Positions 50,141 through 53,699 of a stretch of DNA of 64,000 bases are shown here, in pieces; positions within the stretch are counted from its first letter, which is position 1; every line of letters starts with the position of its first letter. Source of the DNA: Silvibacterium acidisoli (GTDB lineage: Bacteria; Acidobacteriota; Terriglobia; Terriglobales; Acidobacteriaceae); NCBI GenBank assembly GCA_022870745.1, contig CP085323.1, positions 1,116,001 to 1,180,000 on the forward strand, in the 5' to 3' direction. Made by a program: the position numbers and the translations under genes. Under the pieces are notes generated by a model that saw only the letters and a program-made list of their open reading frames with translations, did not search any database and was not told the origin of the DNA.

Positions 50141-50215
50141 TGGAGGCGCGGGTCGGAATCGAACCGACGCATAAAGGTTTTGCAGACCTCTCCCTTACCA
50201 CTTGGGTACCGCGCC
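50141..50215 (-). tRNA. tRNA-Cys (GCA), CCA encoded
   Basis: The minus strand folds as a cloverleaf: acceptor GGCGCGG/CCGCGCC, D stem CCC/GGG, anticodon loop CTGCAAA (GCA) and T arm GTCGG-TTCGATT-CCGAC. U73 and an encoded CCA follow, and U73 is the expected cysteine identity element. It lies downstream of tRNA-Gly in the same direction and probably shares its transcript. Confidence 0.95.
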
Positions 50216-50292: not shown

Positions 50293-50367
50293 TGGAGCGG
50301 GAGACGGGACTTGAACCCGCGACCCTCGCCTTGGCAAGGCGATGCTCTACCACTGAGCTACTCCCGC
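50293..50367 (-). tRNA. tRNA-Gly (GCC), CCA encoded
   Basis: Cloverleaf on the minus strand: acceptor GCGGGAG/CTCCCGC, D arm AGCTCAGTGGTAGAGCA, anticodon loop TTGCCAA (GCC), T arm GCGGG-TTCAAGT-CCCGT, discriminator T and encoded CCA at 50293-50295. It is preceded by a good promoter match at 50381-50409. Confidence 0.96.
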
Positions 50368-51609: not shown

Positions 51610-52249
51610 CCAAAATCCTCTGCCGCTCCGTCGCACATTGGGAGCTGTCAGCATGCAGGCACACGTCCAGACACACGTCGGCGGCGTGGGCCCCGCAAGG
51701 GGTTCCGTTGGCCGCACCTGGCCTGAAAAGGAAAATACGGCCCCGTCCGCATCGCGGGGCTGCAAAATTGCAGTCCGCGCGACACGGTGCCGCGCTCCGG
51801 CTTCAGGCCTGGATGCGGAGAACGAGAGGGCTGCGCACGGTTGCCCGCGCTGTCAACGACGTCTGCGCGTTTGCGGCGTGCTCCCCGCAAGATGGCAGAC
51901 GGCAATGAGCGCACATGCTCGCGCCCCTCGCTCTAACTCAAGTTGTGTTTAAAAGGCGAAAGTTGCGTCTTGCGATTTCTCGTAAGCGCTTGCGTAGAGT
52001 ACGAAGACCCCGACCCTGTGTAAACAGGGAATATGAGGCGAAAATCCGCGTGTTTTTCGCGTAAAGTTCCACCGCCCCCCGCGTGGGCACTGTGAATATT
52101 GGAGATGCGATACACAGCCCCTGTTGAAAGCATGTGAATCGCTCACGGAAAAGGCGTCCCGTTGCAACGCGCGTGGTGCGACGCCTTTCTCGCGTTTTGC
52201 CCTGGCACATTCATGCTGTTTTCAAGTTCGTTTCACACGGCAAGGTGGT
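51610..52249. other. gene-free stretch between REC gene and peroxiredoxin promoter
   Basis: Neither strand shows a convincing protein. The part from 51930 to 52150 is more A/T-rich and could hold divergent promoters or a small RNA that I cannot name. A hairpin AAAGGCGTC (52150-52158) / GACGCCTTT (52180-52188) with a CGTTGCAACG palindrome in its loop may end a transcript entering from either side. Confidence 0.4.
52150..52188. terminator. hairpin, possible bidirectional terminator
   Basis: AAAGGCGTC and GACGCCTTT form a 9-bp stem around 21 bases that themselves contain CGTTGCAACG. On the plus strand it is followed by CTCGCGTTTTG, and on the minus strand by TTCC. It insulates the peroxiredoxin promoter from upstream sequence. 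Confidence 0.45.
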
Positions 52250-52278
52250 TTGACAGTCCCCTGCCGAGGTTCTATGCT
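52250..52278 (+). promoter_or_regulatory. promoter of the Cys-leader / peroxiredoxin unit
   Basis: TTGACA (52250-52255) and TATGCT (52273-52278) are separated by 17 bases, an excellent sigma-70-type match. Predicted start of transcription is near 52285, about 35 bases before the leader-peptide ATG and about 210 before the peroxiredoxin start. Confidence 0.8.
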
Positions 52279-52319
52279 CAGTAGTCAGAGGCGGCAGCAT
52301 TGCGCTTCAAGCTTTCTTC

Positions 52320-52394
52320 ATGACCATGATCGCTTCAACCCGTATGTGTATGTGCTGCTGCTGTCGCTGCAGCTCCGCGCGGGTTGTTTCCTAG
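52320..52394 (+). CDS. cysteine-rich leader peptide (24 residues)
   Basis: The small frame reads MTMIASTR, then MCMCCCCRC, then SSARVVS and TAG at 52392-52394. Six of eight codons from 52347 to 52370 are Cys (TGT, TGC, TGC, TGC, TGT, TGC). ATG 52326 and 52344 are alternative starts; no strong ribosome binding site is visible. It sits between a near-consensus promoter and a T6 terminator ahead of a peroxiredoxin gene. Polycysteine upstream frames are known to act as cysteine-responsive attenuators in mycobacteria. Here the same role is inferred: slow decoding of Cys codons would change folding of the RNA downstream. Confidence 0.6.
   Translation: MTMIASTRMCMCCCCRCSSARVVS
52379..52385 (+). promoter_or_regulatory. 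candidate antiterminator arm inside the leader frame
   Basis: GCGGGTT lies 9 bases after the last Cys codon. It is exactly complementary to AACCCGC at 52420-52426, the 5' arm of the terminator, and mimics the terminator 3' arm GGCGGGTT. A ribosome stalled on the Cys codons would leave it free to pair, while one reaching the stop codon would cover it. Confidence 0.45.
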
Positions 52395-52419
52395 GGCGAT
52401 CTTTTCCAGGGATGCATCG

Positions 52420-52453
52420 AACCCGCCGGGGCCACCCGCCAGGCGGGTTTTTT
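52420..52453 (+). terminator. terminator/attenuator ahead of the peroxiredoxin gene
   Basis: AACCCGCC (52420-52427) pairs with GGCGGGTT (52442-52449), and TTTTTT runs from 52448 to 52453. The loop contains a second ACCCGCC (52434-52440) that can form a shorter alternative hairpin with the same 3' arm. The U-tract ends 43 bases before the peroxiredoxin ATG, so unless it is bypassed it should end most transcripts from the promoter at 52250. Confidence 0.75.
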
Positions 52454-52495
52454 CATGTACAAACTTTTTGAGAGCAAAGAGCCAAGGAAAGAGAC

Positions 52496-53152
52496 ATGTC
52501 ACTGCGAATCAACGATATTGCTCCTGATTTCACCGCCGAGACGACTCAAGGCACCATCCACTTCCACGAGTGGATAGGCGATAACTGGGCCGTTCTTTTC
52601 TCGCACCCCAAGGACTTCACGCCGGTCTGCACCACCGAGCTCGGCGCGGTCGCTGCTCTCGAAAGCCAGTTTGCCCAGCGCGGAGCCAAGGTCATCGGCC
52701 TCAGCTGCGACCCCGTCAAGGACCACAGCAAGTGGGCGGAAGACATCAAGGAAGTTGGCGGCCACGCCGTGAATTACCCCATCATCGGCGATCACGACCT
52801 GAACGTTGCCAAGCTGTATGACATGCTGCCTGCCGACGAAGGCGACAGCTGCGAAGGCCGCACGCCGGCCAACAATGCTCCCGTACGCACGGTCTTCGTC
52901 GTTGGGCCCGACAAGCGCATCAAGCTGACACTGGCCTATCCCATGACCACCGGCCGCAACTTCGACGAGATCATCCGCGTGCTCGACTCGATCCAGCTCA
53001 CCGCGAAGCACAAGGTTGCCACGCCGGCCAACTGGCAGCAGGGCGGCGATGTCATCATCACCGGCGCGGTTTCGAACGAGGAAGCCGACAAGATCTTTCC
53101 CGGCTATAAGACCGTGAAGCCTTACCTGCGCACCACCACGCAGCCGAAGTAA
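52496..53152 (+). CDS. 1-Cys peroxiredoxin (Prx6 type)
   Basis: A 218-residue peroxiredoxin that reduces peroxides in the cytoplasm. The peroxidatic site is SHPKDFTPVCTTELGAVAAL with Cys45 and the conserved Thr. The catalytic Arg fits NNAPVRTVFVVGPDK. The C-terminal extension (WQQGGDVIITGAVSNEEADK) is the Prx6-subfamily dimer domain. Additional Cys residues occur at GLSCDPVKDH and DSCEGRTP. The ATG has AAGGAAAGAG upstream. It is preceded by a cysteine-rich leader peptide and terminator, and followed 48 bp later by a tRNA-Cys gene without an evident promoter of its own. Confidence 0.93.
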   Translation: MSLRINDIAPDFTAETTQGTIHFHEWIGDNWAVLFSHPKDFTPVCTTELGAVAALESQFAQRGAKVIGLSCDPVKDHSKWAEDIKEVGGHAVNYPIIGDHDLNVAKLYDMLPADEGDSCEGRTPANNAPVRTVFVVGPDKRIKLTLAYPMTTGRNFDEIIRVLDSIQLTAKHKVATPANWQQGGDVIITGAVSNEEADKIFPGYKTVKPYLRTTTQPK

Positions 53153-53168
53153 GCTATATGTGAATTCT

Positions 53169-53194
53169 CTCCCGTGTCCGCCCGGACACGGGAG
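53169..53194 (+). repeat. hairpin between peroxiredoxin and tRNA-Cys
   Basis: CTCCCGTGTCCG (53169-53180) pairs with CGGACACGGGAG (53183-53194). No T-tract follows, so it may be a processing or stability hairpin rather than a terminator. It ends 6 bases before the tRNA 5' end. Confidence 0.7.
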
Positions 53195-53200
53195 CCAAGA

Positions 53201-53276
53201 GCACCGGTGGCGAAGTGGCTAACGCGCTGGTCTGCAAAACCAGTATTCGCGGGTTCGATCCCCGCCCGGTGCTCCA
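53201..53276 (+). tRNA. tRNA-Cys (GCA), second isoacceptor-type gene, CCA encoded
   Basis: Cloverleaf: acceptor GCACCGG/CCGGTGC, D stem GCG/CGC, anticodon stem CTGGT/ACCAG with loop CTGCAAA (GCA), T arm GCGGG-TTCGATC-CCCGC, U73 and CCA. The body differs strongly from the other tRNA-Cys at 50141-50215, although anticodon and discriminator are identical. It lies in line with, and just behind, the peroxiredoxin gene. Confidence 0.95.
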
Positions 53277-53282
53277 AACGGC

Positions 53283-53699
53283 CTAAATCAACTGCTTTCC
53301 CACGGGAGAGCGATTGTATTCGCGGAACGCCAGCAGCCCTGCGTAGACCATCACGTAGATCAGCTGCAATCCAGCCGAGTCCCAATCCTGCCGCAACGTA
53401 GAACCGAAGGTAAGCGACGCCATCAGCAACAGGCCCGCGATGAAGGTGATCCGGCTGAAGACTCCCAGTAAAATCAGCAGGCCGACCAATGCTTCGGCGA
53501 ACGGCAACGCGAAGGCGTAGCTATAGACCATCTGCGACGGCAGCGGTGTCGAGGCAAACATCTTTACAAGCCCCCTGGCAAACTTTCCCGCGCCCATGTA
53601 GATGCGGCTGGCTCCGTGCACGCCGATATTGATGCCCAGGATGATGCGAACCAGCAGGTAAGCCCAGCGCCGATCGCGAATCGTTTCCTCAGTCGCCAT
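53283..53699 (-). CDS. DoxX family membrane protein
   Basis: A 138-residue protein with four predicted membrane helices (YLLVRIILGINIGVHGASR, FALPFAEALVGLLILLGVF, ITFIAGLLLMASLTFGS, LQLIYVMVYAGLLAF), matching the DoxX family of small quinone/thiol-related membrane proteins. The function is not established for most members. The same frame runs open to 54494, but that part is antisense to the S9 peptidase gene. ATG 53699 has GGAGGAAG directly upstream and begins the conserved region. It converges on tRNA-Cys and is divergent from the peptidase gene. Confidence 0.88.
   Translation of the reverse strand: MATEETIRDRRWAYLLVRIILGINIGVHGASRIYMGAGKFARGLVKMFASTPLPSQMVYSYAFALPFAEALVGLLILLGVFSRITFIAGLLLMASLTFGSTLRQDWDSAGLQLIYVMVYAGLLAFREYNRSPVGKQLI

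Follow-up and report, generated by a model that had tools for sequence, protein, structure and literature searches.

The locus analysed here raises a simple question: what is controlled by a short reading frame crowded with cysteine codons that lies between a promoter and a peroxiredoxin gene? The frame occurs in a stretch of 64,000 nt, hereafter called the window. A preliminary description of this DNA had interpreted the frame as part of a cysteine-responsive attenuator. Comparison with related genomes supported this reading through conserved Cys codons, covarying RNA arms and cysteine or sulfur genes downstream, and brought a tRNA gene into the proposed unit.

The leader contains mutually exclusive RNA pairings

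The leader consists of the following elements.

52250–52278, + strand: promoter TTGACA-17-TATGCT (TTGACA 52250–52255, TATGCT 52273–52278), from a sigma-70-like scan
52320–52394, + strand: leader frame of 24 codons, MTMIASTRMCMCCCCRCSSARVVS, from the open reading frame list, with counterparts in relatives
52335–52342, + strand: arm 1, CAACCCGT, partner of arm 2 in a protector hairpin around the Cys codons, from pairing in relatives
52347–52370, + strand: six Cys codons within eight codons, the proposed stalling sites
52379–52386, + strand: arm 2, GCGGGTTG, 5′ arm of the antiterminator, from pairing/covariation and folding
52420–52427, + strand: arm 3, AACCCGCC, partner of arm 2 or arm 4, from pairing/covariation
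52434–52448, + strand: residual 6-bp hairpin ACCCGC-CAG-GCGGGT, followed by T's, from folding
52442–52453, + strand: arm 4, GGCGGGTT, with the T6 tract, 3′ side of the intrinsic terminator, from sequence and pairing

The promoter, the 24-codon frame, the six Cys codons, the GCGGGTT/AACCCGC match and the T6 terminator had all been placed correctly in the preliminary description, which did not include arm 1 (52335–52342). When positions 52000–53600 were scanned, the promoter was the sole sigma-70-like match, where shuffled sequences lead one to expect 0.4; the leader frame starts 41 nt past its −10 box. Only one eight-codon stretch with at least six Cys codons was present in the six frames of the window, namely the leader cluster, and of 60 shuffles of the window that preserved dinucleotides, one held any such cluster. 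The GCGGGTT core of arm 2 (52379–52385) is the exact complement of AACCCGC (52420–52426), and the stop codon, at 52392, starts 6 nt past this core. The terminator formed by 52420–52427 and 52442–52449, with T6 at 52448–52453, has a predicted energy of −21.2 kcal/mol. The leader anatomy is exact, and a chance origin is unlikely.

Folding of the free RNA with an assumed ribosome footprint of 14 nt predicted the antiterminator when the ribosome was placed at Cys codon 1, 2 or 4, and the terminator when it was placed at the last Cys codon or at the stop codon. It had been cautioned earlier that a shorter hairpin could terminate transcription even beside the antiterminator. This hairpin is real: the 6-bp stem at 52434–52448 and the T's behind it remain available once the antiterminator has formed, and at −10.1 kcal/mol it was the strongest such remnant among 18 leaders compared, the others ranging from −2.4 to −8.7 kcal/mol. 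Together with the T tract, it may cause termination despite the antiterminator in the window copy.

The leader is conserved among close peroxiredoxin orthologues

Peroxiredoxin orthologues were taken from 61 genomes (30 loci) and from a named collection (80 loci). All eight loci of the same genus (L001–L007 and L021; 68–100% peroxiredoxin identity) had the Cys-rich frame, the promoter, the terminator and a downstream tRNA-Cys on the same strand, as did L008, L041, L042, L044 and L045, the last being the Terriglobus albidus locus. In this comparison of acidobacterial leaders, which the preliminary description had proposed, Cys codons, promoter and terminator were kept in 13 of 15 loci, and the antiterminator pairing was retained with paired changes. 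The exceptions were L009 (78% identity), which lacks the leader terminator and has no tRNA-Cys beside the peroxiredoxin gene, and L043 (83% identity), where the Cys-rich frame is present without terminator or tRNA-Cys.

A second, shorter leader, ending in ...CCCTRAPVCG before the stop codon or similarly, precedes the peroxiredoxin gene at L010, L011, L015, L017 and L018. Its terminator is ACCCACCCGG...GGGTGGGTTT, and no tRNA-Cys was present in the fetched stretch. In the screen of the 61-genome set, 12 of the 26 orthologue loci with at least 62% identity had no such leader. Screening of the 80 named loci found Cys-rich frames of the leader kind in the five closest acidobacterial loci and in L057, which lies on the same contig as L010. 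Cys runs flagged near peroxiredoxin genes in other phyla were mostly within long frames and at inconsistent positions, and were set aside.

A promoter-like TTGAC[AGT]-17/18-TA...T site was located upstream of the Cys codons in all 18 leaders by a search that targeted such sites. In 11 of the 18, an in-frame start lies 6–13 nt past the −10 box, which makes a leaderless frame probable in those cases. The number of Cys codons ranged from 4 to 9 among the 18 leaders, and their spacing varied too. Measured from the end of arm 2, the start of the stop codon ranged from 3 nt upstream to 12 nt downstream across all 18 leaders, and each leader had a terminator-like stem (18/18), although the T tracts were short in some, such as L010.

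Antiterminator and terminator pairings covary

Pairing was tested against 500 shuffles in alignment A1, which holds the 13 leaders of the close set. Arms 2 and 3, the antiterminator, were paired in 86.5% of cells, a value reached in 3 of 500 shuffles, and five cells were changed on both sides, a number reached in 1 of 500. The terminator pairing of arms 3 and 4 was present in 91.3% of cells, a level that none of the 500 shuffles attained. The clearest paired change was found in L003, where arms 2 and 3 are both altered, to TATGCCGG/CCGGCATA. Within this alignment, pairings 2:3 and 3:4 covary while the sequence drifts. The protector pairing 1:2 was present in 85.7% of cells; covariation above shuffles was not found for it in the 13-leader close set (474 of 500 shuffles as high).

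A wider alignment, A3, had 79 rows, of which three secondary matches were removed to leave 76 leaders of all gene classes; L178, L179, L183, L188 and L189, where Cys leader or gene was then unclear, were left out. In permutations that ignore relatedness, and in an alignment whose fitting had used pairings 1:2 and 3:4 and left out 2:3, the mean pairing of leaders with their own arms was above the permutation mean for 1:2 (15.5 versus 13.1), 2:3 (16.5 versus 15.3) and 3:4 (22.7 versus 20.3), in each case above 200 of 200 permutations. Several leaders of sulfur genes show the same layout with different arms, CCAGAAG/CTTCTGG for 1:2 and CTGGCG/CGCCAG for 2:3.

The element precedes cysteine and sulfur genes

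A covariance model built on the 13 leaders of the close set (R1) was used to search 150 genomes of the family at E ≤ 0.001, and matched 74 places in 64 of them. In the window genome, the peroxiredoxin leader was the only strong R1 match; the next best was partial, with an E value of 0.03. A scan of the same genome for TGYNNNTGYTGYTGYTGY returned mostly CTG/TGC repeats and was abandoned. Downstream genes were assigned with Pfam/NCBIfam for representatives and otherwise by eye from translations.

Peroxiredoxin genes follow at 43 of the 74 places, 34 of them encoding proteins with at least 60% identity to that of the window and 9 belonging to a distant subfamily (<45%). Genes for sulfur or cysteine assimilation or transport follow at 20 places. 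They comprise 11 nitrite/sulfite reductases, 2 cysK, 2 cysD, 2 rhodanese-type genes, 1 siroheme synthase, 1 sulfonate-binding protein and 1 CysT sulfate permease about 1 kb downstream; two of the NIR_SIR genes were run against NCBIfam to separate nitrite from sulfite reductase and scored below the cut-off. At 5 places, tRNA-Cys is the first recognised feature past the terminator, which brings the places with tRNA-Cys to 34 (29 after a peroxiredoxin gene, 5 alone). Two places are less clear, with a pyridine-nucleotide disulfide oxidoreductase and an ATP-grasp protein. The remaining 4 concern other amino acids: two ilvB-like genes, whose leaders (L178, L179) allow a Val-rich as well as a Cys-containing reading, and one aspartokinase-like and one threonine-dehydratase-like gene, whose leaders have no Cys run.

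A second model (R2), searched in 396 genomes of the phylum at E ≤ 1e-4, gave matches in 48. Outside the family, Cys leaders were found ahead of a phosphoadenylyl-sulfate reductase gene (L258 tested) and of a cysK-like gene (L248, Pfam PALP). In genomes of the phylum the models also picked out, as judged by eye, leaders of trpE-like genes that carry Trp codons and of ilvB/ilvA-like genes that carry Val/Ile codons; leaders of this kind are L237, L244, L253, L178, L250 and L189. The models thus detect attenuators generally, and the leader codons match the gene downstream, which provides a useful internal control. Matches ahead of genes for other amino acids (4 of 74 for R1; trpE-, ilvB- and proB-like for R2) were excluded from the support for cysteine. 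That the element stands ahead of cysteine and sulfur genes across the family suggests that it senses cysteine.

Some further arrangements were observed. In genus g51, a putative sulfate exporter of the YeiH type lies behind leaders that hold eight or nine Cys codons (L245, L247, L255); the L245 protein matched Pfam PF03601, and NCBIfam TIGR00698 below its cut-off. At L158, L222 and L224, tandem peroxiredoxin genes of different subfamilies follow a single Cys leader. A tRNA-Sec(UCA) gene lies near the peroxiredoxin gene in several genera of the family (L144, L154, L160, L177, L185, L187, L019, L024), and in the first six of these loci the pair stands behind a Cys leader.

A second type of tRNA-Cys probably belongs to the downstream unit

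The genes downstream of the leader, and two tRNA genes nearby, are as follows.

52496–53152, + strand: 1-Cys peroxiredoxin, 218 aa (Pfam PF00578 AhpC-TSA, 1.4e-29; PF10417 1-cysPrx_C, 1.8e-10)
53169–53194, + strand: perfect 11-bp hairpin without T tract, between the peroxiredoxin and tRNA-Cys genes
53201–53276, + strand: tRNA-Cys(GCA), second cysteine tRNA type of the family, from ARAGORN and tRNA comparison
50141–50215, − strand: ordinary tRNA-Cys, from ARAGORN
50293–50367, − strand: tRNA-Gly

Solved structures related to the window peroxiredoxin include peroxiredoxin 6 chains. The tRNA-Cys gene at 53201–53276, which the preliminary description had not counted as part of the unit, lies 48 nt past the peroxiredoxin stop codon on the same strand. 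In relatives, 44 distinct gaps between the two genes measured 41–178 nt (median 55), and 36 of the 44 held a hairpin of at least 6 bp. The short gaps, and hairpins without a T-rich tail, suggest that peroxiredoxin mRNA and tRNA-Cys arise from a joint transcript that is later processed. In the window, the 11-bp hairpin at 53169–53194 would likely protect the 3′ end of the mRNA once the tRNA has been excised.

Compared with other tRNA genes, the peroxiredoxin-linked tRNA-Cys is a distinct second type beside the ordinary tRNA-Cys. Each type occurred in 24 of 25 genomes, which had been chosen mostly for carrying leaders. The ordinary tRNA-Cys and the tRNA-Gly of the window lie 3 kb from the peroxiredoxin-linked tRNA-Cys, so that both cysteine tRNAs of the genome share one neighbourhood; the two types are also 4–7 kb apart in G006, G001 and G079.

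The second tRNA-Cys was also counted independently of the leader, by its close relatives (E ≤ 1e-15) in 150 family genomes drawn likewise. This gave 38 places in 36 of the 150 genomes, and 34 of the 38 had a same-strand Cys leader in front of them (32 found by R1, 1 by R2 and 1 by eye), an association absent from the preliminary description. In G142, peroxiredoxin and tRNA-Cys genes occur together with no Cys leader recognised, and in G034, G028 and at one of two G159 places the second tRNA-Cys has no leader. Also new was the leader followed directly by tRNA-Cys, found in G112 (L171), G114 (L148/L196), G127 (L169), G133 (L150/L197) and G161 (L163); in L169, the tRNA starts 10 nt past the matched leader. 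These five genomes yielded no peroxiredoxin orthologue at E ≤ 1e-30; G112 is a draft of 84% completeness, and the others are 93–100% complete. In G008, of the window's own genus, neither a peroxiredoxin orthologue nor the second tRNA-Cys was found.

The association is not uniform. Of the 43 leader-peroxiredoxin places, 29 had a same-strand tRNA-Cys, 6 had tRNA-Sec only and 8 had neither in the fetched stretch, so the idea of tRNA-Cys as a constant companion of the leader was dropped. In G508, the second tRNA-Cys and the terminator remain, while the adjacent peroxiredoxin gene and the Cys codons are gone and a peroxiredoxin of 63% identity is encoded elsewhere in the genome; this tRNA behind a decayed leader argues against the tRNA always needing the switch. 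Both the G508 arrangement and the 14 of 43 places without tRNA-Cys in the fetched stretch would fit an attenuator limited to peroxiredoxin, with tRNA-Cys either transcribed from its own promoter inside the peroxiredoxin gene or a chance neighbour. We regard this as unlikely, since none of the 44 gaps of 41–178 nt holds a terminator-like hairpin with a T-rich tail, and the scan of 52000–53600 found no promoter-like site between the window's peroxiredoxin and tRNA-Cys genes. Limitation to peroxiredoxin also sits poorly with the leader at 34 of 38 places of the second tRNA-Cys, and with the five genomes in which the leader is followed by the tRNA and no peroxiredoxin orthologue was found.

Proposed mechanism

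The element is most likely a transcription attenuator specific for cysteine and mediated by the ribosome, with a peroxiredoxin and tRNA-Cys transcription unit under its control. Sequence comparison provides the leader elements and how well they are kept, the covariation of pairings 2:3 and 3:4, the geometry and the gene associations; from these we infer stalling, read-through, co-transcription, tRNA processing and a physiological reason as follows. With ample Cys-tRNA, the ribosome would reach the stop codon at 52392 and mask arm 2; arms 3 and 4 would then pair, and transcription would end at 52453. With scarce Cys-tRNA, the ribosome would stall at the first Cys codons and cover arm 1, leaving arm 2 free for arm 3. 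The 2:3 pairing would block the terminator and let the polymerase proceed through the peroxiredoxin gene into tRNA-Cys, which would afterwards be excised from the transcript. If the leader were not translated, arms 1 and 2 would pair and the terminator would form.

Physiologically, peroxide removal and extra tRNA-Cys might both be needed when cysteine is scarce, or when cysteine or tRNA-Cys is oxidised. We lean slightly towards a more specific reading, in which an attenuator senses how well a tRNA is charged and has the gene of that very tRNA as its output. The second tRNA-Cys would then be inducible mainly when ribosomes stall at Cys codons, providing feedback on tRNA supply; in the window lineage, the peroxiredoxin gene would lie in between, and charging of Cys-tRNA would double as a sensor of sulfur shortage or thiol oxidation. 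Against the proposed mechanism as a whole stands that extra tRNA is no help if cysteine itself is missing. The residual hairpin of the window copy, the 1:2 pairing that did not covary in the close set, and the several relatives without the leader or without tRNA-Cys also count against it.

If control were translational or Rho-dependent, an option considered for the polycysteine leaders of mycobacteria, the terminator would be incidental. The residual hairpin, which weakens the antitermination model for the window copy, and the leaderless appearance of 11 of 18 leaders, as in mycobacteria, would agree with such control. It is nevertheless improbable: the terminator-like stem is present in 18 of 18 leaders and covaries with the antiterminator in the close set, and where the unit consists of the tRNA alone, the leader is followed first by an untranslated feature.

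Alternatively, the nascent Cys-rich peptide could itself be the sensor, binding metal or being oxidised by peroxide so that the switch reads either signal. In favour are the peroxidase gene downstream, the capacity of Cys clusters to bind metals, and the residues behind the cluster, which many leaders share (RVC close to the C terminus). This reading is very improbable: these RVC codons form arm 2, whose pairing in the RNA accounts for their likeness, Cys codon number and spacing vary, the element also precedes genes for cysteine synthesis, for sulfate/sulfonate uptake and for tRNA-Cys, and trpE-like leaders carry Trp codons and ilvB-like leaders Val/Ile codons, as codon-reading attenuators predict.

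Comparison with known systems

When the window and L121, L149, L169, L170 and L258 were compared with Rfam, only tRNAs reached the gathering score, and no T-box match did; the best sub-threshold match in the leader had an E value of 0.25. The cysteine-reading attenuator proposed here shares several features of amino-acid attenuators: a short leader frame enriched in the codons of one amino acid, an exclusive antiterminator and terminator that share an arm (with a short residual hairpin kept in the window copy), a stop codon close to arm 2 in all 18 leaders, and downstream genes of the metabolism of the same amino acid. Judged by most of the features that can be tested in sequence, it would work like a classical amino-acid attenuator. 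Classical attenuators of the trp/his/leu type have pairings 1:2, 2:3 and 3:4, with the regulatory codons between arms 1 and 2. The present element has the same arm order, the codons between arms 1 and 2 and the stop codon at arm 2; it differs in that the target there is amino acid synthesis and here an antioxidant enzyme and a tRNA.

The nearest known relatives of the element are the polycysteine leaders of mycobacteria and the uORFC-8-2 cysS leader. Polycysteine leaders of mycobacteria are reportedly the subject of an experimental paper by Canestrari et al. (2020). As predicted earlier (PMC1262725), the leaders of mycobacterial cys operons likewise have runs of Cys codons, leaderless starts and cysteine/sulfur genes downstream, whereas they have no conserved terminator and the targets are cys operons rather than peroxiredoxin or tRNA genes. 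The uORFC-8-2 motif upstream of cysS in Rhodobacterales, proposed to read the charging of Cys-tRNA, is similar in its short frame with tandem Cys codons, its RNA stems and its terminal U run, and in the proposed control of a gene for Cys-tRNA supply (PMC8632094). It differs in having two Cys codons, in its Cys-tRNA synthetase gene, in its alphaproteobacterial hosts and in the absence of a peroxiredoxin or tRNA gene (PMC8632094).

A parallel on the enzyme side is LsfA of Pseudomonas aeruginosa, also a 1-Cys peroxiredoxin that is raised when sulfur is short, lsfA being up more than 45-fold in sulfur starvation; a Cys-codon leader is not mentioned in the excerpt of that report (PMC12581299). In E. 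coli, almost all tRNA species drop soon after oxidative stress and raised tRNA is protective, according to one study (PMC4474833), and in Bacillus subtilis under mercury stress tRNA-Cys alone was altered among six tRNAs examined, according to another (PMC5372718). Taken together, these three reports make a joint response of peroxiredoxin and tRNA-Cys to the loss of charged tRNA-Cys plausible.

The preliminary description could name no earlier example in front of a peroxiredoxin or in acidobacteria, and our search of the open-access literature (PMC) likewise returned no description of a Cys-codon attenuator before a peroxiredoxin or tRNA gene. Within that literature, peroxiredoxin and, above all, a tRNA gene are new as attenuator targets. 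Known attenuators control enzymes of amino-acid synthesis or of tRNA loading; here the output apparently includes the tRNA gene itself, together with an antioxidant enzyme whose need follows thiol shortage. If this is true, bacteria tune the amount of one tRNA by sensing its charging, and a redox enzyme is governed by the speed of translation rather than by a peroxide-sensing regulator.
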